From contig NZ_LT702999.1 of assembly GCF_900149685.1 (NCBI RefSeq), positions 1,116,001 to 1,180,000 on the forward strand: a DNA stretch of 64,000 nt, written 5' to 3'. Below are positions 50,405-64,000 of this stretch, in pieces. Numbering within the stretch: position 1 is the first letter of the stretch; every line of letters starts with the position of its first letter. Below the pieces are notes generated by a model. It did no database searches. It saw nothing but the letters and a program-made list of their open reading frames with translations, and was not told where the DNA came from. Position numbers and translations under genes: made by a program. The stretch is from Erythrobacter sp. Alg231-14 (lineage in GTDB: Bacteria > Pseudomonadota > Alphaproteobacteria > Sphingomonadales > Sphingomonadaceae).

Positions 50405-50550
50405 AGAAGCTCGCATTCAATTGTACAAGAACGTCAATTACGCCGGTTCCTTCACACAGCACTTGCGCATGGGCCGCTTTGCGGGGATAGAAGAAGGCAC
50501 GCCAACACAAAGATGCATTGATCGCATTGTTCCTATGGGGGGAGAAATCA

Positions 50551-51903
50551 ATGGCCGTATCCGATCACGTAGACCTTGAAACATTCATGGCCGGCGTTGC
50601 TAAACGCAACCCGGGTCAGACCGAATTCATCCAAGCTGTGCACGAAGTGGCACAGGACATTTTTGAATTCATGGAAGACAAGGTTCATTACCACGAAGCG
50701 CAAATCCTGCGCCGCATGGCAGAGCCAGACCGCGTCATTTCCTTCCGCGTTTGCTGGGAAGACGATAACCACAACATCCGCGTTCAGCGCGGCTGGCGTG
50801 TTCAAAACAACAACGCAATTGGCCCATACAAGGGCGGCATCCGTTTCCACCCTAGCGTGACCGAAAGCGTACTGAAGTTCCTCGCCTTTGAGCAGACCTT
50901 CAAAAACTCGCTAACCGGCCTGCCTATGGGCGGCGGTAAAGGCGGCGCAAACTTCAATCCGAAGGGCAAGTCCGACGCAGAAGTGATGCGTTTCTGCCAA
51001 AGCTTCATGTCAGAACTCTATCGCCACATTGGCCCCAACACCGACGTTCCTGCGGGCGACATTGGCGTTGGCGGACGCGAAATTGGCTATATGTTCGGCC
51101 AATACAAGCGACTGACCAACCGTTGGGAAGGCGTTCTGACCGGCAAGGGTCAGGAATATGGCGGCTCAGAAATGCGTCCCGAAGCAACCGGCTACGGCGC
51201 GGTCTACTTCCTGCAAAATATGCTCAAGCATCAAGGCATGGATGTCGAAGGCCACACGGCAGTCATCTCTGGTTCGGGCAATGTGGCAACACACGCTGCG
51301 GAGAAGATCACGCAACTGGGCGGTAAAGTGCTCACACTTTCGGATTCAGGTGGCTTCATCCACGATCCGGACGGCATCAGCCAAGAGAAAATCGATTGGG
51401 TCAAGCACCTTAAGACGGTCAAGCGCGGTCGCATCAGCGAGTATGTCGATGAGTTCAGCGGCGCGACCTTCCACGAAGGCCGTCCATGGGGCGTCGCCGC
51501 AGACCTCGCTCTACCATGCGCCACTCAAAATGAGTTGAATGAAGGCGAAGCCAAGTCCTTGGTTGGAAACGGCGTTAAAGGCGTTTCCGAAGGCGCGAAT
51601 ATGCCGACCACTCTCGAAGGCGTAAAAGTCTTCCACGATGCCAAGATCATGTACGGTCCGGGCAAAGCGGCGAATGCCGGTGGTGTTGCGGTGTCTGGTT
51701 TGGAAATGAGCCAGAACTCAGAGCGCATCAGCTGGAATTCTGAGCGTCTCGGCGACATGCTGACCGATTTGATGGAAGGCATCCACGGCAAGTGCACCGA
51801 ATATGGCCAACAAGAAGGCGGCTATGTTGACTATGTGAAAGGTGCGAACATTGCAGGCTTTAAGAAAGTCGCAGACGCAATGATGGCGTTTGGTGTCGTT
51901 TAA
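50551..51903 (+). CDS. gdhA: NADP-specific glutamate dehydrogenase
   Basis: A 450-residue GDH of the hexameric NADP type. The active-site lysines lie in YKGGIRFHPSV and FKNSLTGLPMGGGKGGANF; PTDVPAGDIGVGGREIGYMF-like and GSGNVATHAAEKITQLG (cofactor site) are intact, and the length fits the 50-kDa family. It makes glutamate from 2-oxoglutarate and ammonium. ATG at 50551 is preceded by GGGGGGAG. A long perfect hairpin terminates the transcript 28 bases after the stop. The gene is monocistronic. Confidence 0.96.
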   Translation: MAVSDHVDLETFMAGVAKRNPGQTEFIQAVHEVAQDIFEFMEDKVHYHEAQILRRMAEPDRVISFRVCWEDDNHNIRVQRGWRVQNNNAIGPYKGGIRFHPSVTESVLKFLAFEQTFKNSLTGLPMGGGKGGANFNPKGKSDAEVMRFCQSFMSELYRHIGPNTDVPAGDIGVGGREIGYMFGQYKRLTNRWEGVLTGKGQEYGGSEMRPEATGYGAVYFLQNMLKHQGMDVEGHTAVISGSGNVATHAAEKITQLGGKVLTLSDSGGFIHDPDGISQEKIDWVKHLKTVKRGRISEYVDEFSGATFHEGRPWGVAADLALPCATQNELNEGEAKSLVGNGVKGVSEGANMPTTLEGVKVFHDAKIMYGPGKAANAGGVAVSGLEMSQNSERISWNSERLGDMLTDLMEGIHGKCTEYGQQEGGYVDYVKGANIAGFKKVADAMMAFGVV

Positions 51904-51991: not shown

Positions 51992-52981
51992 TTATTGAAT
52001 GCCGAGTTGCGCCGCTTGCGCTCGCAATTCGTCGGCTTCATCTGGGTTGGCCGCGATGGCTTTTTCCAATGCGTCGCGCGCTCTGCCCATTTCACCCAAT
52101 GTTGCTCTGCTGCGAACCAGCATAACCCATCCATCAAGATCCTGAGGATTGTCTTCCAATCGCGCCTCAAGGCTGGCGACCATTCCGGCAACCATGCTTT
52201 CTTGTTCACCCGGCGTCATCCGACTTGCGTCGGCAACTTGTTGAGCCGTTGGCCCACGAAGAGTGCCCGATGCGGCCTCGCCCGCGACTTCGCCGGATCC
52301 GGGCAAGACGACCTGCGGTGTTCGCGCTTCGACAACCGTGGCCAATCTTTGTTCAACATCAATATCGTTGATCGCACCGACCTGTTGAATTGTGCGAACA
52401 AGGTCGCTTTCCCAAGGGGCACCCGGTGGTGTATCCGAAAGAAGGGCAAGCCAAGATGAGATCGCGCCTTCGTGATCCTCATTCAAATCTTGCTTTACCG
52501 CCATGAAATAACGCGCACGCGGATCACCGGGATCCAGTTCCAGCGCTTTTTCAAACGACTCCAAAGCCGCCGGAGGAAGCGGGTCGCGCGCACTCGCATA
52601 CACCTGCGCCTCACCCAATGCAGACCACAAAACCGCTTCGCTCGGGTCAATCTCGACCGCGCGTTCATATGCGGCAACGGCATCGCTGTATTCTTCGGTG
52701 TTGTAGTAAGCGAATGCGAGCTCAGTCCATGGCCGCGCATCGTCGCTTGATGCCTCTGCAGCGGCGACCAATTCATCGATTGACGCAGCCTCTTCGGCCC
52801 CGGCTGTGGATTCGGTTTCCGCCGCACCACCCGAATAAACATTAAAGCCAATCGATCCCGCGGCCAAAATTGCAGCGGCTCCTAGCAAGAGCCATCCGGC
52901 CTTGCCTCCCGATCCGCTGTCGTTCTCAGTCGATTTGGTGTCTAAATCCGCGTTTCGCGTGTCATTTGCATCAGTTGTCAT
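51992..52981 (-). CDS. CcmI/NrfG-like TPR protein for cytochrome c assembly
   Basis: A 329-residue inner-membrane protein: N-terminal acidic tail, a membrane segment (about 28-48, GWLLLGAAAILAAGSIGFNV), and a periplasmic region with several TPR units (for example RPWTELAFAYYNTEEYSDAVAAYERAVEIDPSEAVLW). The last part, MVAGMVASLEARLEDNPQDLDGWVMLVRSRATLGE, matches the C-terminal motif of CcmI/CycH, which holds apocytochrome c for haem ligation. It lies divergently 80 bases from the redox operon with multihaem cytochromes, which need such assembly help. ATG at 52981 has no clear Shine-Dalgarno sequence. Function inferred. Confidence 0.75.
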   Translation of the reverse strand: MTTDANDTRNADLDTKSTENDSGSGGKAGWLLLGAAAILAAGSIGFNVYSGGAAETESTAGAEEAASIDELVAAAEASSDDARPWTELAFAYYNTEEYSDAVAAYERAVEIDPSEAVLWSALGEAQVYASARDPLPPAALESFEKALELDPGDPRARYFMAVKQDLNEDHEGAISSWLALLSDTPPGAPWESDLVRTIQQVGAINDIDVEQRLATVVEARTPQVVLPGSGEVAGEAASGTLRGPTAQQVADASRMTPGEQESMVAGMVASLEARLEDNPQDLDGWVMLVRSRATLGEMGRARDALEKAIAANPDEADELRAQAAQLGIQ

Positions 52982-53061
52982 AAGTTTTTCACTAGCAACT
53001 GGTGCAGAAAACGGCAATTGTCTCTGGCATTGATGAGCGCTTTCTTTATGGTGGTGTTTGT

Positions 53062-55608
53062 ATGGAATCTATCCAAGGGGGGGATGGATTGGGGGATTTG
53101 TATAAAGTCGCCATAGTTGGCTCCGGCCCTGCCGGGATGAGCGCTGCTGGTCAGGCCGCGGCGCGAGGGATGTCGCACGTCCTGCTCGAAAAGACAGACC
53201 ATCTTTCAGACACGATTTTCAAATACCAAAAGGGCAAGCACGTCATGGCTACGCCCTCTGACTTGCAGTTGCGGGCCGGTGGTTATGAAGAAGGCGGCCT
53301 TGAGGGGATGGAGTTCGAAGAAGGCACGCGAGAGCGAATTCTCGGTGTCTGGAACAAGCATTGCGGCATCGAAGACGAGCGCATGCCCACCTATGAGGGT
53401 GACGTTCAGACCTTCGAAATTAACACCAAGCTCAACGCCGAAGTCACCAAAGTGGAAGGTGAAAAGGGTAACTTTACGATCACCCTGAAAAGCGGCGATG
53501 TGGTCAGAGCGGAAACGATCGTTCTGGCGATAGGAACCCAAGGTAATCCCAATAAGTTGCGTTGCCCTGGTGCTGACCACCCGATGATTACGCCTCAGCT
53601 TGATGACCCGGAAGATCACGTCGACAAAAACATCGTTGTCGTCGGAACCGGCGATGCGGGTATCGAAAACGCATTGGGGCTCGCGACCGATTCGGCACTT
53701 GGCAACAACGTCACGATTTTGAACCGCGGCAAAGACTTCGCCAAAGCGAAAATCAAGAACGCGACAGACCTTGAGAACGCCAATGGCGAAGGTCACTTAA
53801 GGATCGCCTATCGCACATCGCCCGCCGAAGTTCGTGACGGCGAAATGGTCGTCGAGACAGAGACCGGACAAGAAATCATCCCTTGCGAGATGATCATTGC
53901 GCGGATTGGTTCGCAACCTCCGCGCAAATTCATCGAAAGCATGGGAGTTGAGTTTACTAGCGAAGATCGCAGCGCCTTCCCCAAACTTTCTGCAGAGTTT
54001 GAGACAACGAACGCAGGCATCTTCGTCATCGGCGCGCTCGCCGGATATCCTTTGATTAAGCACTGTATGAATCAGGGCTATGATGTCATCGAATATCTAG
54101 AGACGGGCAACGCCGTGAAACCGGCCGATGAACCCCTGTTGGAACGGGTTTTTGCCAATCTTCCAGGTGGCAAAAGCGTCGATCACTGGCTCGAAGTGTA
54201 CCGCACGCAAATCAGCATTTTCCGCGGCCTTTCGACCTTGCAGATGCGAGAGCTTATGCTCGACAGTATTTGCAGTGCCTTCGCACCGGGAGAGCCAATC
54301 TTCCGTCGTGACGAACCGGGGTCATCTTTGTTCGCGATTGCCCAAGGGACAGTTGCGGTTGAAGTGAACCCCAACAATCCTTCGATTACGGTGCCGATTC
54401 AACAAGGATCGATCTTTGGTGAAGTTGGTTTGATTTCTGGCCGTCGTCGTGGCGCGACCATTCGCGCCGCAGAAGACGTTGTGGTCGTCGAATTGTCACG
54501 CAAAGCGGCGCTCAAGCTGATCAAATCTTCACCCGAAGCCGAAGCCGAAGTAACGCGGATTTCGATTGAACGGCAAATTCTGCAAATCTTTGGCTCGGGA
54601 CTAACTCCCGAAGATATTGGCCCCTTGGTCGACAGTGCGGAAATGAAGGAAATTCGCGCTGGCGAGACGGTTATTGCCGAGGGCGATGATGACAAGGATC
54701 TCTATATCTGCCGCGTCGGTTCGATGAAGGTGGAGAAAGAGATCGACGGGAAATCGGTCTTCCTTTCTTTGATACCGGCCGGCAATTTCTTTGGTGAAAT
54801 GGCCGTGATTGACGGATCTGAGCGCACCTCTACCGTGAGTGCATCGATCAAATCGGAGGTCATCCGTTTACCGGGTGAAGGCTTCCTCGCATTGCTCGAT
54901 AAGAAACCGCAATTGCGCGAACGGGCATTGGAAGTGATGGCGGAGCGACGTCGTTCCAATGAGGAAATCGAAAGCCAGCAAAGCAAAGCTGATAATGCGT
55001 TGGATAATTTTTCTGGTACGGCTGCGTTCCTTTTTGACCAAGGTATGGGCGAAGCAACCGACGCGCTGTTGATTGACGAGCGCCTTTGCATTGGTTGTGA
55101 CAATTGCGAAAAAGCATGTGCAGATTCGCATGACGGACTGTCCCGGCTCGATCGCGAAGCCGGTAAGAGCTTTGCATATCTACATGTTCCAACATCGTGC
55201 CGGCATTGCGAACATCCCCATTGCATGACCGATTGTCCGCCAAACGCGATTCAACGCGGGTCCGATGGCGAAGTTTCGATCAACACAGAAACATGCATTG
55301 GTTGCGGCAATTGTAAGACATATTGCCCTTACGGCGTTATCAATATGGAACCCGTGCCGCCTGAAAAACCCAACCTTTTGAAATGGTTGATGTTCGGCAG
55401 TGGTCCTGGCCCTGGTCAAGCATCCTATTCTTGGCGCAAGGAGAATTCCGAACCGAACGTCGCGAAGAAGGCTGTGAAGTGCGACATGTGCGCTGGGATC
55501 GATGGAGGTCCGTCCTGCGTTCGCGCATGTCCAACCGGGGCTGCCATTCGCGTCGCACCCGATAAATTCATCAATTTCGCCAAGCTGACAGAGGACGTCG
55601 AAGACTGA
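53062..55608 (+). CDS. Flavin reductase-cNMP sensor-ferredoxin fusion protein
   Basis: An 848-residue cytoplasmic fusion. Residues 1-360 are a two-dinucleotide-site FAD/NAD(P) module (G20-x-G-x2-G25 and GTGDAG at 195-200) resembling thioredoxin reductase/YpdA but without the CxxC disulfide. Two cyclic-nucleotide-binding domains follow (about 375-490 and 500-620), each with a phosphate-binding cassette: FGEVGL..RRGATIRA (452 on) and FGEMAV..RTSTVSA (577 on). The C-terminus carries four [4Fe-4S] cysteine groups (C676-686, C713-725, C745-755, C807-823) in the HybA/DmsB/NrfC pattern. ATG at 53062 is assumed. It heads the operon and overlaps the next gene; predicted role is electron input gated by cNMP. 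Confidence 0.9.
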   Translation: MESIQGGDGLGDLYKVAIVGSGPAGMSAAGQAAARGMSHVLLEKTDHLSDTIFKYQKGKHVMATPSDLQLRAGGYEEGGLEGMEFEEGTRERILGVWNKHCGIEDERMPTYEGDVQTFEINTKLNAEVTKVEGEKGNFTITLKSGDVVRAETIVLAIGTQGNPNKLRCPGADHPMITPQLDDPEDHVDKNIVVVGTGDAGIENALGLATDSALGNNVTILNRGKDFAKAKIKNATDLENANGEGHLRIAYRTSPAEVRDGEMVVETETGQEIIPCEMIIARIGSQPPRKFIESMGVEFTSEDRSAFPKLSAEFETTNAGIFVIGALAGYPLIKHCMNQGYDVIEYLETGNAVKPADEPLLERVFANLPGGKSVDHWLEVYRTQISIFRGLSTLQMRELMLDSICSAFAPGEPIFRRDEPGSSLFAIAQGTVAVEVNPNNPSITVPIQQGSIFGEVGLISGRRRGATIRAAEDVVVVELSRKAALKLIKSSPEAEAEVTRISIERQILQIFGSGLTPEDIGPLVDSAEMKEIRAGETVIAEGDDDKDLYICRVGSMKVEKEIDGKSVFLSLIPAGNFFGEMAVIDGSERTSTVSASIKSEVIRLPGEGFLALLDKKPQLRERALEVMAERRRSNEEIESQQSKADNALDNFSGTAAFLFDQGMGEATDALLIDERLCIGCDNCEKACADSHDGLSRLDREAGKSFAYLHVPTSCRHCEHPHCMTDCPPNAIQRGSDGEVSINTETCIGCGNCKTYCPYGVINMEPVPPEKPNLLKWLMFGSGPGPGQASYSWRKENSEPNVAKKAVKCDMCAGIDGGPSCVRACPTGAAIRVAPDKFINFAKLTEDVED

Positions 55609-56471
55609 TGGCGAGCGTTCCAAACAAGCGGTTTAAGCAGGATGAGGAGCGGCGTAATGCCGACCACGTCAGCTTTCTAAAATACCGGCATTATCGTTGG
55701 CTGTGGATCGCGATTTTCCTGAGCGTGGTAAGTGCTCTTGGCTATTGGATGATCGATCAAGAGCCCCGCCCCAATGGCGGCAGTTGGTATGGTTATATCC
55801 TCGGTACAATCGGTTTGCTTTTGATTGTCTGGCTCTCTCTTTTGGGCCTGCGCAAACGTAAGATATCCGAAGGCAGCTGGAGCCTAAAGGCTTGGACGAG
55901 CGCACACATCTATTTGGGCCTTGCCCTTATTGTGGTCGGAACGCTGCACACCGGGTTTCAAATCGGCTGGAATGTGCACACACTCGCTTACATTCTTATG
56001 TTGCTCGTCATCATCAGCGGCATCTATGGCGTGATCGTTTACACAAAGCTTCCCAAAACGCTGTCTTCAAACCGCAAGGAAATGACGCGGGCGGATATGC
56101 TCGATGAACTTGCGGTAATCGATCGCCAGCTTGACGCTGCGGCACAGCCATTGGGCCGAAGAGAATGCGATTTGGTGATCGGCGCCTTGGGACAAGACGT
56201 ATTTTCCGGCGGGGCGTTTGGCCGCCTGACTGGCGCCTATCCCGGCTGCAAAACCGCGCGAGCGCTTTCCCAAATTTCGGATGGCGGCAGTGATGCCGAA
56301 CAAAACGTCTACGCATTGTTGACCAAACGCTCAGATCAACTTGGGCAAATTCGTCGCCACCTTCGCAACAAAGCGTTGCTAGAGGTTTGGTTGTTCATTC
56401 ACATTCCGGCGACAATCGCGTTGCTCGCCGCACTGCTCGCGCATGTCGTGAGCGTGTTCTTCTATTGGTGA
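55608..56471 (+). CDS. Probable dihaem b-type membrane protein
   Basis: A 287-residue protein with five hydrophobic segments (about 32-49, 62-81, 98-118, 126-146, 261-285) and a soluble insertion at 150-255. H100 and H114 in the third segment, and H265 and H279 in the last, are each 14 residues apart, the spacing used for two stacked haems b in cytochrome b561/b-type proteins; H124 is extra. It therefore could carry electrons across the inner membrane. The ATG overlaps the previous stop (TGATG), so it is coupled to the Fe-S fusion protein, its likely electron donor. No known family is identified with certainty. Confidence 0.72.
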   Translation: MASVPNKRFKQDEERRNADHVSFLKYRHYRWLWIAIFLSVVSALGYWMIDQEPRPNGGSWYGYILGTIGLLLIVWLSLLGLRKRKISEGSWSLKAWTSAHIYLGLALIVVGTLHTGFQIGWNVHTLAYILMLLVIISGIYGVIVYTKLPKTLSSNRKEMTRADMLDELAVIDRQLDAAAQPLGRRECDLVIGALGQDVFSGGAFGRLTGAYPGCKTARALSQISDGGSDAEQNVYALLTKRSDQLGQIRRHLRNKALLEVWLFIHIPATIALLAALLAHVVSVFFYW

Positions 56472-56481
56472 GGTTGGCGTC

Positions 56482-58260
56482 ATGGCATTCCTGATCCGCA
56501 CCATCGCCAAAGCCAAATCCGGTCGAGAAATCGTGCGCGACCGCACGGTAGAGCAAGCCGAATTGGTCATTGGCCGGGCTCCTGATAGCGATATTCACCT
56601 TCCCGACCTCTCGGTCGATTTGCATCATTTGAGCCTGTCCGATGCGGGCGGCGGGATGCTTGTCGCAAAGTCGTTGGACGAATTGCCTTTCAACGTCGAC
56701 GGCGTCTCCGTTTCGGAGAAAATGATTGATCCAAATGCCGGAGCCGAAATTACGGTAGGCCCCGCACAAATGGCGATCACTCGAGATGGTGATGGACCGG
56801 TTCAGATCATCATTCAGAACGTCGACAAAGCAAAAGGGGCCGACGATCCATTGCAGGGCTTTGGTCTTGCCAGCGCCCTGCCGAGCAAGCGCGCGATGGC
56901 TTGGGCTTTTGCCCTAACGATCCTCGTGCTGCTTTTGTCCATTCCGATTATCACGCACCTTACGCGGGAACCGGTGGAAAATGACCCGGAAAACCTCGCT
57001 CAAGGACAGGTCCTATTCGACGCAAGCTGGAGCTCAGGCGAACTCAGCATGGCGCACCACGATTTGGAGGAAAATTGCGAGGCATGTCACGCCACTCCTT
57101 TCGTTTCGGTGCAGGATGAAACCTGCCTAACTTGTCACGAAGAGCTGGGCGATCACGCAGAGATGCCGCGCCTAGCCGATGGCATGGCGCCCCTGAGCAC
57201 CGGCGATTCAATTCAATGGCAAATCGCCGAAACGCTGGGCAAGGAAGGCCCTTTGGGCTGCGTTTCCTGCCACTCAGAGCACGAAGGACCGGTCGTTCTA
57301 GAGGCGGCGACCGAGCAATTCTGTTCGGATTGTCACAATGAACTCGACACCCGTTTGACCGATGTGTCTTTTGGAAACGCTGCCGACTTTGGTGAGAAGC
57401 ACCCACAATTCCGCCCACAAATCTACACCGCACATTTCGACGCCGAGCCGACCCGCGTGTCGCTCGACAACGACGTTACCGAGATGAGCGGTCTGATCTT
57501 CCCCCATGACATCCATATGCAAAGCGATGGCGGTGTCGCACGTATGGCCGAAAGCCTCGGTGATTATGGCGCGCCATTGGAATGCAGCAATTGTCACGCG
57601 GAAGAAGAAGACCGCGTGGGCTTTGCTCCTGTTGAAATGGAGCCCGCATGCGAAAGCTGTCACAGCCTCGTTTTCGACCGGAACGGACCGAACTTTCGGT
57701 CGCTGCGTCATGGCGACGTGGACGATCTGATGGCGGATCTGGCAACGATGGACCGAGGACCGCGTGCTGCCGTTGTATCTGGCCGTGGACGTCCCGGTCA
57801 ATTTGCCCGAGGCGGCGCATACTTCTCTAACTTTGGTCGTCCGATGAGCGCTTATATCGCAATCAATCGCGCACTGGAGCCCACAGGCGTTTGCGGCGAA
57901 TGCCACATCCCTACTAGCACCAACGGGCGTCGCGACTTGACGCCAGTGAACCTGCCGGATCGGTTCTTATTGGGCGGATATTTCGATCATGCCGCTCACG
58001 GTGATGATGTGGCCGAATGCACAGATTGTCACGCAACCGGCACTTCGGGTGAAGCAACAGACTTGCTGATCCCAGATCTGAACAGCTGCCGCGACTGTCA
58101 CTTGGGCGAAACTGCGGCCAAAACCGAAGAGATCACGCCATCCAGCTGTGCAATGTGCCACGGCTATCACACTCCCACGATGCCGTGGCGCCCAGAAGAT
58201 CACCCCGAAAATGGCGGTAATGACTCTGTTGCTACGATCCTGAGTAGTCTAAGACGCTAA
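56482..58260 (+). CDS. FHA-like domain-anchored decahaem cytochrome c
   Basis: A 592-residue protein. Residues 1-100 resemble a forkhead-associated domain (LVIGRAPDSDIHLPD, then VDLHHLSL), though the usual Ser and Arg before the His are not present. One membrane segment lies at 138-160. The remaining periplasmic part has ten CxxCH haem motifs (CEACH, CLTCH, CVSCH, CSDCH, CSNCH, CESCH, CGECH, CTDCH, CRDCH, CAMCH) between about 199 and 560. It lacks a cleavable signal, so the FHA-like part should face the cytoplasm. Likely receives electrons from the haem-b protein and crosses the periplasm. ATG at 56482 follows GAGG. Confidence 0.9.
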   Translation: MAFLIRTIAKAKSGREIVRDRTVEQAELVIGRAPDSDIHLPDLSVDLHHLSLSDAGGGMLVAKSLDELPFNVDGVSVSEKMIDPNAGAEITVGPAQMAITRDGDGPVQIIIQNVDKAKGADDPLQGFGLASALPSKRAMAWAFALTILVLLLSIPIITHLTREPVENDPENLAQGQVLFDASWSSGELSMAHHDLEENCEACHATPFVSVQDETCLTCHEELGDHAEMPRLADGMAPLSTGDSIQWQIAETLGKEGPLGCVSCHSEHEGPVVLEAATEQFCSDCHNELDTRLTDVSFGNAADFGEKHPQFRPQIYTAHFDAEPTRVSLDNDVTEMSGLIFPHDIHMQSDGGVARMAESLGDYGAPLECSNCHAEEEDRVGFAPVEMEPACESCHSLVFDRNGPNFRSLRHGDVDDLMADLATMDRGPRAAVVSGRGRPGQFARGGAYFSNFGRPMSAYIAINRALEPTGVCGECHIPTSTNGRRDLTPVNLPDRFLLGGYFDHAAHGDDVAECTDCHATGTSGEATDLLIPDLNSCRDCHLGETAAKTEEITPSSCAMCHGYHTPTMPWRPEDHPENGGNDSVATILSSLRR

Positions 58261-58262
58261 GG

Positions 58263-59132
58263 ATGAAGAGCGATAAAGGCGGTGTGCTTATTGCACAGAT
58301 CACCGATACGCATGTGGGCTTTGAGCCTGAGGCGGGTGAGAACGAATTCAACTTCGTGCGGTTTCGCAATGTCCTAGGACATTTGCTGAGCCAACCGGTC
58401 ATGCCCGATATGCTGATCCTGTCAGGCGACCTTGCCGATGGTGGTCTGGTCGATTCCTACGCGCGAATCCGATCGCTTGTCGAAGAATGTCCGTTCCCCG
58501 TTCACGTCATTCCCGGCAACCACGACGATCGAGAGGCGATGCTCAAGGCATTTCCGGAATGTCCAACTGCCGATGGCTTCGCGCAATATGCCATTGAATG
58601 CGATGGGCTACGGATATTGTGCCTGGACTCGTTTGAGCCAGGACGTCACGGCGGCGCATTTTGTGAAACGCGCGCGGCATGGCTCTCTGAACAGCTCGAC
58701 GAGCATCCTGACACGCCGACGGTCCTTTTCGTCCATCATCCACCTGTGGTTGCGGGCATCGATTGGATGGATCCAAAGCCGCATGAAGCGTGGTTCAAAC
58801 GGTTTCATGACACCGTTGCCGGACACAAGCAGATTATCTCTATCCAGGCGGGTCACTTGCACCGCCCGTTGCACTCAACGGTAGAAGGTATTCCCTTGTG
58901 CGTCACTCCGGCTGTAGCGCCGGCCGTTGCTCTTGATCTGAGACCGATGGATATCGACATTGCGGATCAGCGCCCCATCGTTGCGGCGGAACCGCCATTT
59001 TACAGCCTGCATCTTTGGAAGGATGGAACGCTCGTTTCCCACTTCCAGCCTGTCGGCCATTGGCAAACATTGGCTCGGTTTGAAGACCACCTTAAGCCTA
59101 TGATGCAGGGGCTCTTTGCTGAGCGCGATTGA
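58263..59132 (+). CDS. Calcineurin-like phosphodiesterase, CpdA/Icc type
   Basis: A 289-residue binuclear metallophosphoesterase. Motifs in order: ITDTH (13-17), GDLAD (about 55), GNHDD (about 86), VHHPP and GHLHRP, the set of class III cyclic nucleotide phosphodiesterases (CpdA, hydrolysing cAMP). The gene starts 2 bases after the decahaem gene stop, so it belongs to the same operon as the two-cNMP-domain fusion protein. Removal of the ligand sensed by that protein is a natural inference. Other phosphodiester substrates cannot be excluded from sequence. Confidence 0.88.
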   Translation: MKSDKGGVLIAQITDTHVGFEPEAGENEFNFVRFRNVLGHLLSQPVMPDMLILSGDLADGGLVDSYARIRSLVEECPFPVHVIPGNHDDREAMLKAFPECPTADGFAQYAIECDGLRILCLDSFEPGRHGGAFCETRAAWLSEQLDEHPDTPTVLFVHHPPVVAGIDWMDPKPHEAWFKRFHDTVAGHKQIISIQAGHLHRPLHSTVEGIPLCVTPAVAPAVALDLRPMDIDIADQRPIVAAEPPFYSLHLWKDGTLVSHFQPVGHWQTLARFEDHLKPMMQGLFAERD

Positions 59133-59277
59133 CCGACGATTAGACGTTCACGGAACGTTTAAGGCACACCATTGTCCACCAAACTTGTTGTTCGACTGCG
59201 CTGATGTTTGCGCCGTGCGATGCCGTCGGCTCAATCGCCACGGGCCGATGCAAGATCGGCACCGTGATGATTGTGAA

Positions 59278-62200
59278 CTATTCTCCGCCTAAGGATGGAT
59301 CTTCAACGCCGGCTTCCAAATCGGCGTTCCGTCGCGCCGGGCCTACGCCGCGGCCGACCCAACGATCCATGTCGATCTCATCGGTCACCCTCCACGGAAC
59401 ACCAGAACGCGTCATAAACAATCGTTCCATTTCCGCACGAGTGAAGGGTCGTGATCCTAGTCGCCCAAACACAGCCATTTGGCCGCCGGTTTCATCGACT
59501 GCGCGATCACGATCGATACCTTTCGACAGCGCGATCGCCGGCGTCGGTGTCTCTGCGAAGGCGATCAATTCCGGAACCGGCGCCGGGCTGAAGCCATAGA
59601 AGTTACGCTGGCTCTCCGGGCTTGTGAGTTGAAGAACCTTCATCCCGTTGCGTCCGTCGGCGACGTAAGCAAACAGCGATGCGTTCGTCGATGCGACAAT
59701 AACGTCCTCTGCATCATTCAACGTGCCGTTCAACGTTACCTTTTCTTGAAGCACTGGCGCCCTTGGATTTTCCACGTCGAGGATGACCAAGCCATCCCCT
59801 TTCGCAGCAACGTAAGCGTATGTGCGAGCAACGTAGATCCGACGAGCATCTGCAAGAGGATATGTCGCCTCTGGTACAGCGATAGGATCGCGCAAATCAG
59901 TCACATCAAACAGCTTCACACCCTCGGCATCACTGACCCAAAGGTAGCGGAACTGGATCGCGCTAGCCCTTGCATCGGTCAATGTCCTGACAGCAGTCAC
60001 TTGCGGTGATTTCGGATCGGAAAGATCCACCACAACCAAACCGCGATCCGCCGTAATATAGGCGACCTCACCAGCCAAATGAATGTGGTTCGCGCCATTT
60101 AGAACGCCATCTGGGTTCCATGCATCGGACCCGTCAGAATATTCCAAACGCTCGAAGAAGTTGTCGCGGAATTCGCCATCAGCCAACGTGTTCACGTCGA
60201 CCATGATCAATCCTTCGACCGCATCGGTCACCGCCGCATAGTTGTAGATCGGCAAGAACGGTTGCTCTTGGTTCACTTCGCGCATTTGCGGTGTGTTGCG
60301 CTCTGGCGCGATGGGTTGGTTGGTCGCCAACGCCATGCAAGTCGCGTTCTCGGTATCGACATGTGTGTCATGACCCAAAGGTGAGAATGGCGCGGTGATG
60401 ATCCGTTCAGACACACCTTTGTTGGCGATTGAGGCAACATCGTAGGCCCGGAAGCCACCGCGGCCTTCGGCGACGAACAGATATTCCCCGCGCAATTGCA
60501 AGCAACCGACGCGACCCGGAGTGCCCTCGTGCACGTTCACAAATTCCTCGAACGGATGAGTTTCACCCGAAAGGTCTTCGTCAAACGCGTATCCGCGCAC
60601 CCAGTTTTTCAATTCTCGACCATTGTCCTCAACATGCATCTGCCAATAATCTGGCGTTGAATAGCGATGCAGATAAGAACCGATCACAGCTTGCGGTTCG
60701 TCATATTCGGTCACACGGACCGCCGTCAGACCGCCTTCGAGACCGGTCCACGCATGCATGCCGACGAAGTTTACATAGTTCGTGCCGAGCAAAAGCAACT
60801 GCGACATGATGGCGTTGTTGTCTTCGGCTTCGGACAAGTGACAGTCGGTACACGTCTTCGTTTCATTCAAACGAACAGTGTGCGGGAAGTGGGGCGCAAA
60901 TGCCTGGCTTGAAAAACCAATCGCAGAGATCGGCGGTTGCTGAACATAGATCCGTTCCCGGTTGATATTTGTCGATGACAAAACAAGAGCGGAGGACGAA
61001 CGAACCGGAGCAGTTTGATTGCCTTTGGTCGTTTGATGCACACCCAATTGGAACATCTGATCGCGCGCGACTTGAGGGTTGTAGCTTGCGAAGTTGCGAG
61101 TGGAGCCACCTTCATAACGATGCGACTTGGTTTTCCAGTTGGCCTCAATTGGCAGGTGGCACCCGCCGCATGATGTCGTCCAGGACAAGTGACATGTGAA
61201 GCAAGCCATTTCTTCGTCTTGGTGTGCCCGGTCGCCTTGCTCGATACCCGTTCCAAATTCGAAATTACCGGTTTCTGCGCCATAACGACTCATCAATTTG
61301 GATCGCGCAGCACGGGCATTGAAGACCGGTGTCGCTGGATCCACGGAATCGCGAACGAGGCTCATTTCCCACTGCAGTTCAGGATCAACGAGCGACCGTT
61401 GGATCAAAACGCGGCGGCCTTCTTCGTTCTCCATCCATTCAAACCGGCGTTGACCATCGGGGTTGCGCAAGAGGGCAAGGTTGTGCCCTTCTGGCGGCGC
61501 AGCAGGTCCACTGGTGCGGAGCGTCGGATATTCGTCGGCGGTGCCGTGGCAATCTTTACAACCGATCTCAATCGCATTCGCGACTTCGCCATAGATAAGT
61601 CCGTTGCCATGCGTGTCTTGTTCAAAGTGGCAATCAACGCATTGCATACCGACTTCGGCGTGGATGCTCATCATATGGACGGATTCACCCGGGTTTGTGC
61701 CCGGTTCAACGAATTGACCTTCGCCATCGCGGCGCCAACGCTGACGCCAACGTTCGTCATGATATTCGGCTTCTTCTTCGGTGTCGCCTTCTTGCGAAGG
61801 GCGCAAGATTTCGCCTTCCGCGTCCAGCATATTGCCGTCGCGATCTCTCTTAAAGATGGCGCGGAAATTCCAACCGTGGCCGTGATAATCGGCAAATTGC
61901 GTGTGTTCGAGTTCTGGATTTAGGTCGTACACATTACGCAAGAAATCGAGATCACCCCATAGGCCCTTTGCCGCTGCGGCTTCAGGATTGCGATCAAGGA
62001 TTGCACGAATTTCTTCAGACGTAGGGAACCGTTGAGTTTGGTAGAACTCTTCGTATTCCGCATCGCTCATACCTTCTGGTCGCGGCGTCTGGTTTTCAGG
62101 CCCCGGCCACATAAACGGCGCATCGCTTTCATAATCCCACATCGTGTATCCGAGGTAGGAGTTCAGGAAGATGTTAGGCTGGTGCATGTGGCACGACATG

Positions 62201-63591
62201 CATTGCGATGTTGGAATTGATCGCGTGAAGACGTGTTGCAAGGGATGACCGGATTCCCGCACCGGAACCTCACCATGGCCATCGCCATTGTGATCATCAT
62301 AGCTCTCGCCCGGTTGCCTTAAACCGCCGTGACCACTCGCTCCATCGCTCGCATGTCCATCATCAGAACCATGGCCACCATAACCATGATCTTCCTGCAT
62401 TTGCGTGTTAATGGTCGGATCAACGGTGATCGTCTGACCGTCGCGCCCATATTGAGCATAGACCAATGAATGGCGCGGTTCGCGATCATTGGCGTAGACG
62501 ACATGGCAACTGGCACAGCCGGAGTGACGGTAATCACCCGGTTGATCGTTGGTTCCCATGAACCACGTAAACGGATCGTTGAGACGCGTCTTGTGGATGT
62601 TCAAAGCAGGGATCGCAACCCGCAGGCCGGTGCCTGGGCCGCGGTTTGATTGTTTAAGGTCGGGGCGCCCTGGTTCTTCAAGGCGCTGGATCAGGCCGGT
62701 CGGATTGGGGATACCAATCTCTGGGAATTGCGACAGGATCGTGCGACCACCACGTTCAAACACCCGGAAAACGTCAGCGGGTGGGATCACATGCCACGTG
62801 GGCAATGGGTACAACTCAGAAAGCACGCCGCGCGCACGTTGAGCGTCGCTCAACTCACCATCTTCGCCATCACCGGGCGATGAAATGACATTGGCTTGGC
62901 CACTGATGACCGCAGGATCGCCACTCCGCGTATAGGCTTCGCCGAGCATGTAGTTTTTGAAGGGCAAAATCCCGTTATTGTAGGTGGCCCCTCCCCACAA
63001 CATCGCACCCGTAGCCATAATCGAACGCTCTGCGGCTTCGATCGATTGGATGTGGCATGATCCGCATGCCTCGCGCGCGACCCGATAGTCCGACGGGTTT
63101 ACGAACTTCACGAACTCAGGAGATTCCTGGTTCAGCAATGCATAGGAACGCTGTGGATTGGCGGATGATGGGAAGTGCCAGCTGTCGGGATATTTCGGCA
63201 GGACGTGCGCACTGTCACGCGCGGCGACATATTCGGGATGGTCTTGTGGAAGATCAGAATTGCCTCGCACACTGGCATTGCCGCCATGGCAATCCGTGCA
63301 CCCCAATCGCACGGCGGGCGTTGTGTGCATCGTAGGAGCATCAGTTTGAAGGTGGCAAGTATAACAACCCTCTGATTTAGCGTCCATTTCTGCCTGAGAC
63401 TGGCGGGCCGGTGCCGGCGGAGCGATGACCAAACTGTAATCTCGATAAGTCGGCGTCTCTTTATCCGCCGCCTGCGTTTCCGATTGAAAAACAGAAACCC
63501 CCAGCAACAAAGCCGCGACCGCAAGCAGCGCATAGCGCGGCGAAAAGCCGGTCGAAAATCGCGTGTATGTCGAGATCAAATTTTCTTGCAT
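59278..63591 (-). CDS. Large decahaem cytochrome c with LVIVD-type repeats
   Basis: A 1437-residue exported protein, with a signal peptide cleaved near residue 41. Ten CxxCH motifs occur between residues 76 and about 917 (CYTCH, CTDCH, CGSCH, CASCH, CMSCH, CVDCH, CKDCH, CFTCH, CGGCH, CTDCH). Between haems 4 and 5 lies a His/Gly/Asp-rich insert (about 398-440). The C-terminal 400 residues contain propeller-like repeats such as AYITADRGLVVVDLSDPKSPQ and AYVAAKGDGLVILDVENPRAP, typical of LVIVD proteins. It follows an outer-membrane barrel gene with a TGATG overlap, suggesting an outer-membrane-associated terminal reductase or conduit. Substrate unknown. Confidence 0.88.
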   Translation of the reverse strand: MQENLISTYTRFSTGFSPRYALLAVAALLLGVSVFQSETQAADKETPTYRDYSLVIAPPAPARQSQAEMDAKSEGCYTCHLQTDAPTMHTTPAVRLGCTDCHGGNASVRGNSDLPQDHPEYVAARDSAHVLPKYPDSWHFPSSANPQRSYALLNQESPEFVKFVNPSDYRVAREACGSCHIQSIEAAERSIMATGAMLWGGATYNNGILPFKNYMLGEAYTRSGDPAVISGQANVISSPGDGEDGELSDAQRARGVLSELYPLPTWHVIPPADVFRVFERGGRTILSQFPEIGIPNPTGLIQRLEEPGRPDLKQSNRGPGTGLRVAIPALNIHKTRLNDPFTWFMGTNDQPGDYRHSGCASCHVVYANDREPRHSLVYAQYGRDGQTITVDPTINTQMQEDHGYGGHGSDDGHASDGASGHGGLRQPGESYDDHNGDGHGEVPVRESGHPLQHVFTRSIPTSQCMSCHMHQPNIFLNSYLGYTMWDYESDAPFMWPGPENQTPRPEGMSDAEYEEFYQTQRFPTSEEIRAILDRNPEAAAAKGLWGDLDFLRNVYDLNPELEHTQFADYHGHGWNFRAIFKRDRDGNMLDAEGEILRPSQEGDTEEEAEYHDERWRQRWRRDGEGQFVEPGTNPGESVHMMSIHAEVGMQCVDCHFEQDTHGNGLIYGEVANAIEIGCKDCHGTADEYPTLRTSGPAAPPEGHNLALLRNPDGQRRFEWMENEEGRRVLIQRSLVDPELQWEMSLVRDSVDPATPVFNARAARSKLMSRYGAETGNFEFGTGIEQGDRAHQDEEMACFTCHLSWTTSCGGCHLPIEANWKTKSHRYEGGSTRNFASYNPQVARDQMFQLGVHQTTKGNQTAPVRSSSALVLSSTNINRERIYVQQPPISAIGFSSQAFAPHFPHTVRLNETKTCTDCHLSEAEDNNAIMSQLLLLGTNYVNFVGMHAWTGLEGGLTAVRVTEYDEPQAVIGSYLHRYSTPDYWQMHVEDNGRELKNWVRGYAFDEDLSGETHPFEEFVNVHEGTPGRVGCLQLRGEYLFVAEGRGGFRAYDVASIANKGVSERIITAPFSPLGHDTHVDTENATCMALATNQPIAPERNTPQMREVNQEQPFLPIYNYAAVTDAVEGLIMVDVNTLADGEFRDNFFERLEYSDGSDAWNPDGVLNGANHIHLAGEVAYITADRGLVVVDLSDPKSPQVTAVRTLTDARASAIQFRYLWVSDAEGVKLFDVTDLRDPIAVPEATYPLADARRIYVARTYAYVAAKGDGLVILDVENPRAPVLQEKVTLNGTLNDAEDVIVASTNASLFAYVADGRNGMKVLQLTSPESQRNFYGFSPAPVPELIAFAETPTPAIALSKGIDRDRAVDETGGQMAVFGRLGSRPFTRAEMERLFMTRSGVPWRVTDEIDMDRWVGRGVGPARRNADLEAGVEDPSLGGE

Positions 63592-64000
63592 CAGTAGGCC
63601 AATGTCACGTTTGCGAGAATGGAATAGAACGCGGTGCCATCACCGCGATTGTCGAACAGGTCCTGAAACCCGTCACCACCCAAAAGCGTGGCGCCCGACA
63701 AACGGAAAACGATATTTTGATTGGCCTTAGGCCGCCAGATAGCCGACGCAGAGAGATCGTAGCCGATATCACTTGGGATCGTCCCTTCGATGCGCAGGTT
63801 CTCAAGCGTCGTTGTATCTTCAAACCAAAGATGATTGGCATTGGCGCTAATGCGGAATTCTGGAGTGAGATCAAAGTCTGCCCCGACCCCCACGAGCCAA
63901 AGGCCGGGATTGTTGAAATTCGATTGGCCTTGCTCTTTAGAAGACCGCAAATTGTTCAAAATACCGTTGCGACCATTCACCGAAACGGCGCGTCCACCGC
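63591..64000 (-). CDS. Outer-membrane beta-barrel protein, C-terminal part only
   Basis: The frame is open to the right edge; about 135 C-terminal residues are visible. They show alternating amphipathic strands (LWLVGVGADFDLTPEFRISANANHL, DIGYDLSASAIWRP, NIVFRLSGATLL, FYSILANVTLAY) and a terminal Tyr, the signature of a barrel protein recognised by BamA. The stop overlaps the ATG of the decahaem gene (TGATG). A porin-cytochrome pair as in Mtr/Pio-type conduits is suspected, but the diagnostic N-terminus with CxxC is outside the window. Alternatively an ordinary porin. Confidence 0.65.
   Translation of the reverse strand, partial: GGRAVSVNGRNGILNNLRSSKEQGQSNFNNPGLWLVGVGADFDLTPEFRISANANHLWFEDTTTLENLRIEGTIPSDIGYDLSASAIWRPKANQNIVFRLSGATLLGGDGFQDLFDNRGDGTAFYSILANVTLAY

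Follow-up and report, generated by a model that had tools for sequence, protein, structure and literature searches.

A candidate trans-envelope electron conduit in Erythrobacter sp. Alg231-14, with a PCC4-type inner half, a different outer half and cyclic-nucleotide-binding domains on its entry protein

Most of what is known about trans-envelope electron conduits comes from anaerobic metal reducers and iron oxidizers. What role might a gene set with the parts of such a conduit have in the 3.14-Mb genome of Erythrobacter sp. Alg231-14? We analyzed a stretch of 64,000 nucleotides from this genome (the window; C1:1116001-1180000), in which an initial annotation had described five genes and read two operons as one electron path from the inner to the outer membrane. 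Domain and motif scans located all five genes, at about the places given there and with the expected motifs and domains. The gene set probably carries electrons across both membranes towards the cell surface. A more specific reading, to which we give slightly better than even chances, is that of electron export from NAD(P)H under the control of a cyclic nucleotide, through a conduit that joins an inner half of the published PCC4 type to a different outer half. The genes are as follows, in window positions; adding 60000 to a coordinate prefixed L003 gives window numbering extended past the window's end.

51992-53017, minus strand: CcmI/CycH/NrfG-like TPR protein (PF23914, 57.8 bits, cut-off 42)
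53002-55608, plus strand: flavoprotein (Pyr_redox, two cNMP_binding domains, HydN/DmsB-like module)
55608-56471, plus strand: five-helix membrane protein (two WX3HX13H motifs, SGIYG)
56482-58260, plus strand: FHA/YscD-like decahaem cytochrome (10 CXXCH)
58263-59132, plus strand: SpdA/CpdA-like metallophosphoesterase (PF00149, above cut-off)
59278-63591, minus strand: large decahaem cytochrome of 1437 amino acids (10 CXXCH, PF08309, LVIVD)
63591-64000, minus strand: 3' end of the gene for a barrel-like protein of 630 amino acids (full gene L003:3591-5483)
L003:5486-7435, minus strand, beyond the window: tandem HbpS/GlcG-like lipoprotein (PF03928)
L003:7438-8934, minus strand, beyond the window: c554-like cytochrome (PF13435, 4 CXXCH and one CX4CH)

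The plus-strand and minus-strand operons converge. Their gene spacing suggests two transcripts, one per strand: there are one-base overlaps at 55608 and 63591 (TGATG), and the other gaps within the operons are 2-10 bp. A promoter and terminator scan between the operons gave results at chance level only. The minus operon extends past the window edge, and part of it was therefore out of sight of the initial annotation, which also did not report the cyclic-nucleotide-binding and FHA-like domains or the phosphodiesterase. Among the matches listed, the closest named relatives were uncultured Erythrobacter assemblies, with 92-93% identity in the flavoprotein.

That the two operons belong to one system, as had been proposed, is well supported by comparative genomics. 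All co-occurrence counts given here are raw counts of genomes or records, uncorrected for kinship. In a sample of 147 Sphingomonadales genomes, for which a completeness of at least 90 was requested, the flavoprotein and the large cytochrome were present in the identical 32 genomes; within the host's own genus (eight genomes listed), four had both genes and four had neither. A class sample of 289 genomes, searched with limits of E 1e-100 for the flavoprotein and E 1e-30 for the large cytochrome, gave 26 and 20 genomes, respectively, and all 20 were among the 26. The genes for flavoprotein, membrane protein, decahaem cytochrome, HbpS-like protein (glcG), barrel and large cytochrome followed each other in one direction in 14 of the 17 of these 20 genomes that were "same class" only, and the HbpS-like gene was present in every one of these 14 colinear loci. 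Of the exceptions, one has the set contiguous but rearranged, on a short contig (G322), one is fragmented (G153) and one locus was not included (G417). Thirteen plasmid records contained the large cytochrome, and 12 of them also the flavoprotein, roughly 4-6 kb away. The complete set lies inside 18 kb on pMSHV of Sphingobium herbicidovorans, and pMC4 of Sphingopyxis indica has the half made up of c554, glcG, barrel and large cytochrome.

If the two operons were unrelated and merely neighbors, they should be found apart, and in some relatives they are: 13 of the 32 Sphingomonadales genomes have the halves more than 300 kb apart or on different contigs, with 17 others having both within about 10 kb and two at about 19 and 25 kb. 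This part of the pattern counts against a single system. Separation of this kind had been named as a result that would speak against the two-operon path, and it does occur within Sphingomonadales, but both halves remain in the same 32 genomes and form one operon in 14 of 17 genomes elsewhere. Because of this shared occurrence, the colinear operons and the joint carriage on plasmids, we read the operons as one path. Mere neighborhood is contradicted by the same three observations and is scarcely credible to us.

Loci of named relatives gave a closer view of which genes stay together. The best 80 of 583 were taken; their lengths differ, and some stop short. In 77 of the 80, matches to the flavoprotein, the membrane protein and the decahaem cytochrome were all present. 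Of the 64 loci that extend 6.5 kb or more past the decahaem gene, 47 have a frame for the large cytochrome, and among the other 17, two (L075 and L076) contain part of it in a different orientation. The barrel gene was matched in 48 of the 51 named loci with any match to the large cytochrome, and the three without it (L059, L068 and L079) end in or just past that cytochrome.

The entry protein combines a FAD/NAD(P) reductase domain (Pyr_redox), two cNMP_binding domains and a C-terminal ferredoxin module of HydN/DmsB type, as assigned with Pfam and NCBIfam. Its match to PF13247 scores 42.4 bits (cut-off 26.2), four groups of cysteines are in place for [4Fe-4S] clusters, and the ATG at 53062 is its likelier start. 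Relatives were picked by similarity and by a length of 700-1200 amino acids, with some genomes entering under two locus ids. In all 125 rows, 114 of them distinct, the 16 Fe-S cysteines are unchanged and the Glu/Arg pairs of the two cyclic-nucleotide sites (E474/R483 and E599/R608) are invariant. These pairs lie in an 'FGE...R' pattern, which in CRP and PKA is the cyclic-nucleotide contact. A thioredoxin- or bacillithiol-type disulfide reductase was considered and rejected, since the aligned rows show no conserved cysteine in the flavin domain and the YpdA score of 126.5 is far under the cut-off of 339.9.

The last gene of the plus-strand operon encodes an SpdA/CpdA-like metallophosphoesterase that is probably a cyclic-nucleotide phosphodiesterase; its score with NF050112 is 141.7 bits, under that family's cut-off of 400. 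By a scripted rule, a phosphoesterase gene lies directly 3' of the decahaem gene in 55 of 68 named Sphingomonadales loci. In the remaining 13, a frame on the same strand has its called start within the decahaem gene. Because the Glu/Arg pairs are invariant and a phosphoesterase adjoins the core in Sphingomonadales, the data suggest that the entry flavoprotein is gated by a cyclic nucleotide.

A simple hydropathy scan gave five hydrophobic helices for the membrane protein. It has the WX3HX13H motif twice (W96-H114 and W261-H279) and SGIYG at 137. Among 119 aligned relatives, limited to 220-450 amino acids, two HX13H pairs occur in all, two complete WX3HX13H motifs in 118 and SGXXG in 103, and the protein is predicted to bind two b-haems. 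Ferric reductases and NAD(P)H oxidases show the same pattern, with HX13H pairs on helices 3 and 5 (PMC5566968). This pattern would suit a trans-envelope NAD(P)H oxidase, that is, a conduit ending on O2 at the surface and yielding superoxide. We regard such an oxidase as very unlikely: the membrane protein has no match to a ferric-reductase family at E 0.001 and so differs from NOX and ferric reductases in its transmembrane domain family, and there is no tie between the gene set and measured superoxide. Its one weak match, to PF01292, is below the cut-off (21.3 against 30.1 bits).

The decahaem cytochrome at 56482-58260 begins with an FHA/YscD-like domain, just under the cut-off (32.6 against 33.2 bits), followed by one helix at residues 139-157 and by the part with 10 CXXCH motifs. 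All 10 motifs are found in 112 of 114 rows and nine in the other two. The flavoprotein frame of one family in another class continues into a region that matches the membrane protein, to a length of 1118-1123 amino acids (L119:3052-6420 and L120:9850); He et al. noted that Fe-S and membrane genes of Oceanospirillum are joined in the same manner (PMC5566968).

In the outer half, the large cytochrome has a hydrophobic N-terminus, 10 CXXCH motifs and C-terminal LVIVD repeats in a predicted propeller. Nine of the haem motifs are kept in 38/38 aligned rows and the first one in 37/38. The last 135 codons of the barrel gene lie within the window. Its 630-residue product has no hydrophobic helix in the hydropathy scan and no Pfam match (E 0.01), and the C-terminal residue is Tyr or Phe in all 65 homologues of 500-900 amino acids. 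Searched at E 1, 41 aligned homologues matched four Pfam families once each, none of them of MtrB/PioB type; one of the four is Alginate_exp, presumably a family of outer membrane barrels. A lipobox pattern is present in 15 of 30 homologues of the HbpS-like protein, and the arrangement of four CXXCH and one CX4CH is present in 27 of 28 rows of 380-600 amino acids for the c554-like cytochrome. The large cytochrome may be placed at the cell surface or outer membrane.

The genomes that have the flavoprotein without the large cytochrome indicate what the inner core may serve. The 26 flavoprotein genomes of the class sample divide into 19 with the large-cytochrome module only, five with a PCC4-type module only, one (G304) with both and one with neither. 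Six lack the large cytochrome (G170, which is 86% complete, G197, G205, G250, G265 and G401). All of these except G170 have a five-haem cytochrome adjoining a porin-like protein of about 540 amino acids, and four of the five have a c554-like cytochrome nearby. Because five of the six carry this PCC4-type pair instead, the core appears to be built to feed a cytochrome-barrel pair in the outer membrane. Another 17 genomes, none with a flavoprotein match at E 1e-100, also have the five-haem cytochrome. Seven of them were inspected (L149-L152 and L154-L156), and all seven have the five-haem cytochrome, a 10-haem cytochrome, a porin-like protein and a shorter relative of the flavoprotein, with a c554-like cytochrome in view in six. 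In L150, the one locus in which the shorter relative was scanned, it combines cyclic-nucleotide with Fe-S domains and lacks Pyr_redox.

The two outer modules do not resemble each other. At E 1e-40, a search of the host genome did not find the five-haem cytochrome. No profile similarity was detected between the barrel and two PCC4-type porins, which were selected by cluster content and not by published accession (hhalign probability 0.3%). The profiles of the LVIVD-decahaem and five-haem cytochromes align over 23 columns around one haem motif (probability 9.9%, E 0.0032), with no similarity beyond it. In a quick flavoprotein tree of 114 tips, 78 of them labeled (73 large-cytochrome, five PCC4), four changes of label are required, all forced by starred branches. 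Shuffled labels need 4.9 changes on average, and 36-41 of 500 shuffles were as low, indicating that the labels are hardly clustered. Given the long branches and the five PCC4 rows, we treat repeated exchange of the outer module as a lead only. Outside the class, in a phylum sample of 299 genomes, the flavoprotein was found in four of nine matching genomes. One of these, G566 from another class, has the membrane protein, decahaem cytochrome, glcG and barrel up to near the contig end, and the large cytochrome was not found there.

From the gene set and its domains, the conserved haem and cluster ligands and the linkage of the two halves, we infer an order of carriers, an outward direction, an end point and acceptor, gating and placement at the surface. 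NAD(P)H would reduce the FAD of the cytoplasmic flavoprotein, and electrons would pass through its four [4Fe-4S] clusters to the two b-haems of the five-helix membrane protein and on to the membrane-anchored decahaem cytochrome. The periplasm would be crossed with the c554-like cytochrome. Electrons would then reach the large LVIVD-decahaem, which the barrel and the HbpS-like lipoprotein would keep at the outer membrane, and an extracellular or outer-membrane acceptor would be reduced there. The two cyclic-nucleotide-binding domains, with the phosphodiesterase-like gene alongside, would set the current that is admitted.

Several observations weigh against this model. The large cytochrome lacks a lipobox in 63/63 rows, and its haem density, about one per 140 residues, would be enzyme-like rather than wire-like. 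No recognizable solved relative of the large cytochrome or the barrel was found in the PDB by single-sequence or profile searches: the best result, a lipoprotein, had E 0.09, and a resemblance to nitrite reductase over a stretch of the large cytochrome (E 0.71) is not significant. A count of amphipathic strands in the barrel gave 28, hardly above the 24.9 seen in shuffles (standard deviation 2.2). The barrel assignment therefore draws on the aromatic residue at the C-terminus, on the absence of hydrophobic helices and on the single Alginate_exp match among 41 relatives. Outside Sphingomonadales, the core was not seen with a neighboring phosphodiesterase gene, and within the order the gene was likewise not seen in two loci (L130 and L135). 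FNR-type boxes (at least 8 of 10 bases) precede the flavoprotein gene in 18 of 116 stretches, whereas one shuffle gave 7 of 116; they precede the c554 gene in 4 of 34, the same number as after shuffling. Because the excess before the flavoprotein is weak, with no fixed position, and there is none before c554, oxygen control is not established. Three genomes of another class (G432, G457 and G565) have the core, and neither outer module was found in them at the limits used. Finally, He et al. drew PCC4 with electrons moving inward, from an external donor to the quinone pool (PMC5566968).

The low haem density bears on a different function, that of a periplasmic or outer-membrane reductase. The LVIVD-decahaem, powered by NAD(P)H, would reduce a specific small substrate or an HbpS-bound haem or cofactor, with the barrel as a substrate channel, and the HbpS-like gene in all 14 colinear loci agrees with this. 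We consider a reductase unlikely, given that the barrel gene accompanies the large cytochrome in 48 of 51 loci and that PCC4-type genomes pair the same core with a different cytochrome-porin pair.

The drawing of He et al. raises the question of direction. In an inward conduit, Fe(II), Mn(II) or another external donor would be oxidized at the surface and electrons delivered to the quinone pool or to NAD(P)+. Besides the published model for the same inner core, this reading is favored by an Erythrobacter strain that is reported to oxidize Mn(II) (PMC6247904); He et al. name an Mn(II)-oxidizing Erythrobacter among the carriers of PCC3, not PCC4 (PMC5566968). On the other side, a family search of the host found neither the large chain of RuBisCO nor a photosynthetic reaction center; of 14 control genomes, five were positive for the RuBisCO large chain and one for the reaction center (Photo_RC). 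Fusion of the entry clusters to a flavin domain of NAD(P) type would also be better suited to the oxidation of NAD(P)H. Outward flow is argued in PMC13264449 as well, on the ground that most cluster-bearing metagenome-assembled genomes (MAGs) lack carbon fixation. Because of the NAD(P)-type entry domain, the lack of both enzymes in the host search and this published argument, we favor outward flow and hold the inward conduit to be decidedly unlikely. Phototrophic iron oxidation and RuBisCO lithoautotrophy were rejected for the host on the same searches.

A fuller form of NAD(P)H-driven export is a conduit gated by a second messenger, in which a cyclic nucleotide acts on the flavoprotein, the phosphodiesterase sets the balance, phospho-proteins are perhaps sensed through the FHA-like domain, and the outer cassette is exchangeable. 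We put this forward tentatively, as a possible but somewhat doubtful whole.

Other genes border the two operons. The TPR protein gene is divergent from the flavoprotein gene, and an ATG at codon 13 is a likelier start for it than the end at 53017. A match on the strand opposite to the flavoprotein was present in 76 of the 80 named loci; elsewhere in the host genome, PF23914-type matches occur at five further places, one of them above cut-off. The protein accompanies the module and remains with either half where the halves are split. It may serve as a cytochrome-maturation chaperone and is perhaps dedicated to haem attachment. A glutamate dehydrogenase gene (50518-51903; PF00208/PF02812) adjoins the TPR protein gene. 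Of 65 loci, 28 have a homologue within the approximately 10 kb that precede the flavoprotein gene; in L121-L124 and L165, a homologue accompanies the half with c554 and the large cytochrome. The relative on pMC4 is annotated as NADP-specific. A link to the conduit through NADPH supply is possible. Genes for a CHAT-domain protein and a very large repeat-rich protein, haemagglutinin-like by eye, adjoin the minus operon (L003:10986-19813). On pMSHV (L164), genes for a ShlB-type secretion protein and a large hypothetical protein precede the c554 gene, and on pMC4 a (p)ppGpp synthetase/hydrolase gene adjoins the outer half (L165:14701-16794). The plasmids with the system are large Sphingobium plasmids, with one half on a Sphingopyxis plasmid; of the 13 records, 11 are predicted to be non-mobilizable and two conjugative.

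Among the Sphingomonadales, which include many culturable aerobes, 32 of 147 sampled genomes carry the complete candidate path, as do some large plasmids, and its function is thus within reach of simple deletion tests. The findings also connect PCC4, a proposed conduit, with an entry protein of NAD(P)H type whose cyclic-nucleotide sites are intact, which suggests direct allosteric control of the current. If the proposal is correct, one input would drive different outside chemistries through an exchangeable outer cassette, in aerobic bacteria.

How does this system compare with those already described? Among the papers listed in searches of one open-access library, we found no description of the gene set in Sphingomonadales, of cyclic-nucleotide domains on the entry protein or of outer-module exchange, nor any experiment with PCC4 or with the present system. 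The main text of a survey of outer-membrane multihaem cytochromes (PMC11475568) does not contain Sphingo-, Alphaproteobacteria, Erythrobacter or LVIVD. The nearest paper listed on such control concerns cyclic di-GMP and extracellular-electron-transfer genes in Geobacter (PMC12285248).

MtrCAB, PioAB and MtoAB likewise have multihaem cytochromes and an outer membrane barrel. Here, in contrast, the barrel has no match of MtrB/PioB type, the decahaem cytochrome scores 18.8 bits with the DmsE-type family TIGR03508 (cut-off 192.2), and entry is by an NAD(P)-flavin-FeS protein, not a quinol dehydrogenase of CymA type. Without an MtrB/PioB barrel family or an MtrA/DmsE-type decahaem, membership in MtrCAB/PioAB was rejected. 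PCC3 shares the motif pattern of the membrane protein and the combination of a barrel with two multihaem cytochromes; its cytochromes have medians of 34 and 21 haem sites, with 22-39 residues per haem (PMC5566968), whereas those described here have 10, 10 and 5.

The initial annotation had taken the combination to be undescribed, and two papers contradict this in part: PCC4 (PMC5566968) covers the inner half, and PMC13264449 (2026) reports clusters of large decahaem genes with porins. In 11 clusters of the latter, from cave and groundwater MAGs, a decahaem gene of 4-5 kb adjoins a porin gene, and a ferredoxin-NADP reductase is nearby in seven. By description only, the features given for its 'Group 1' porin-cytochrome clusters fit the outer half of our locus. 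Gammaproteobacteria or Acidobacteriota account for 21 of the 36 cluster-bearing MAGs in that paper, and the words LVIVD, beta-propeller and cyclic nucleotide are absent from its text.

As proposed by He et al., PCC4 comprises a porin, three periplasmic multihaem cytochromes (4, 5 and 10 haem sites), an Fe-S protein of family PF13247 and a protein of the inner membrane that has SGXXG and two WX3HX13H motifs (PMC5566968); our matching is to this published description, not to an accession. PCC4 is also described as having no extracellular cytochrome; the 1437-residue cytochrome of the host may lie either in the periplasm or at the surface. The host agrees in its five-helix membrane protein with WX3HX13H on helices 3 and 5 and SGXXG on helix 4, in a PF13247 Fe-S redox protein gene upstream of the membrane protein gene (as in subgroup II), and in having 10-haem and c554-like (4 CXXCH) cytochromes and a porin-like protein. 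The clusters in L109, L110 and L149-L156 agree with the published content of PCC4 and have the core in common with the window. The three-cytochrome set of PCC4 is matched in part, by the 10-haem and 4(+1)-haem cytochromes, with no five-haem cytochrome found. In place of the five-haem cytochrome and the porin of about 540 amino acids, the host has an LVIVD 10-haem protein, an HbpS-like protein and a barrel that shows no profile similarity to PCC4-type porins. The comparison thus fits an inner half that is already in print as the PCC4 type, joined to an outer half that resembles the clusters of PMC13264449.

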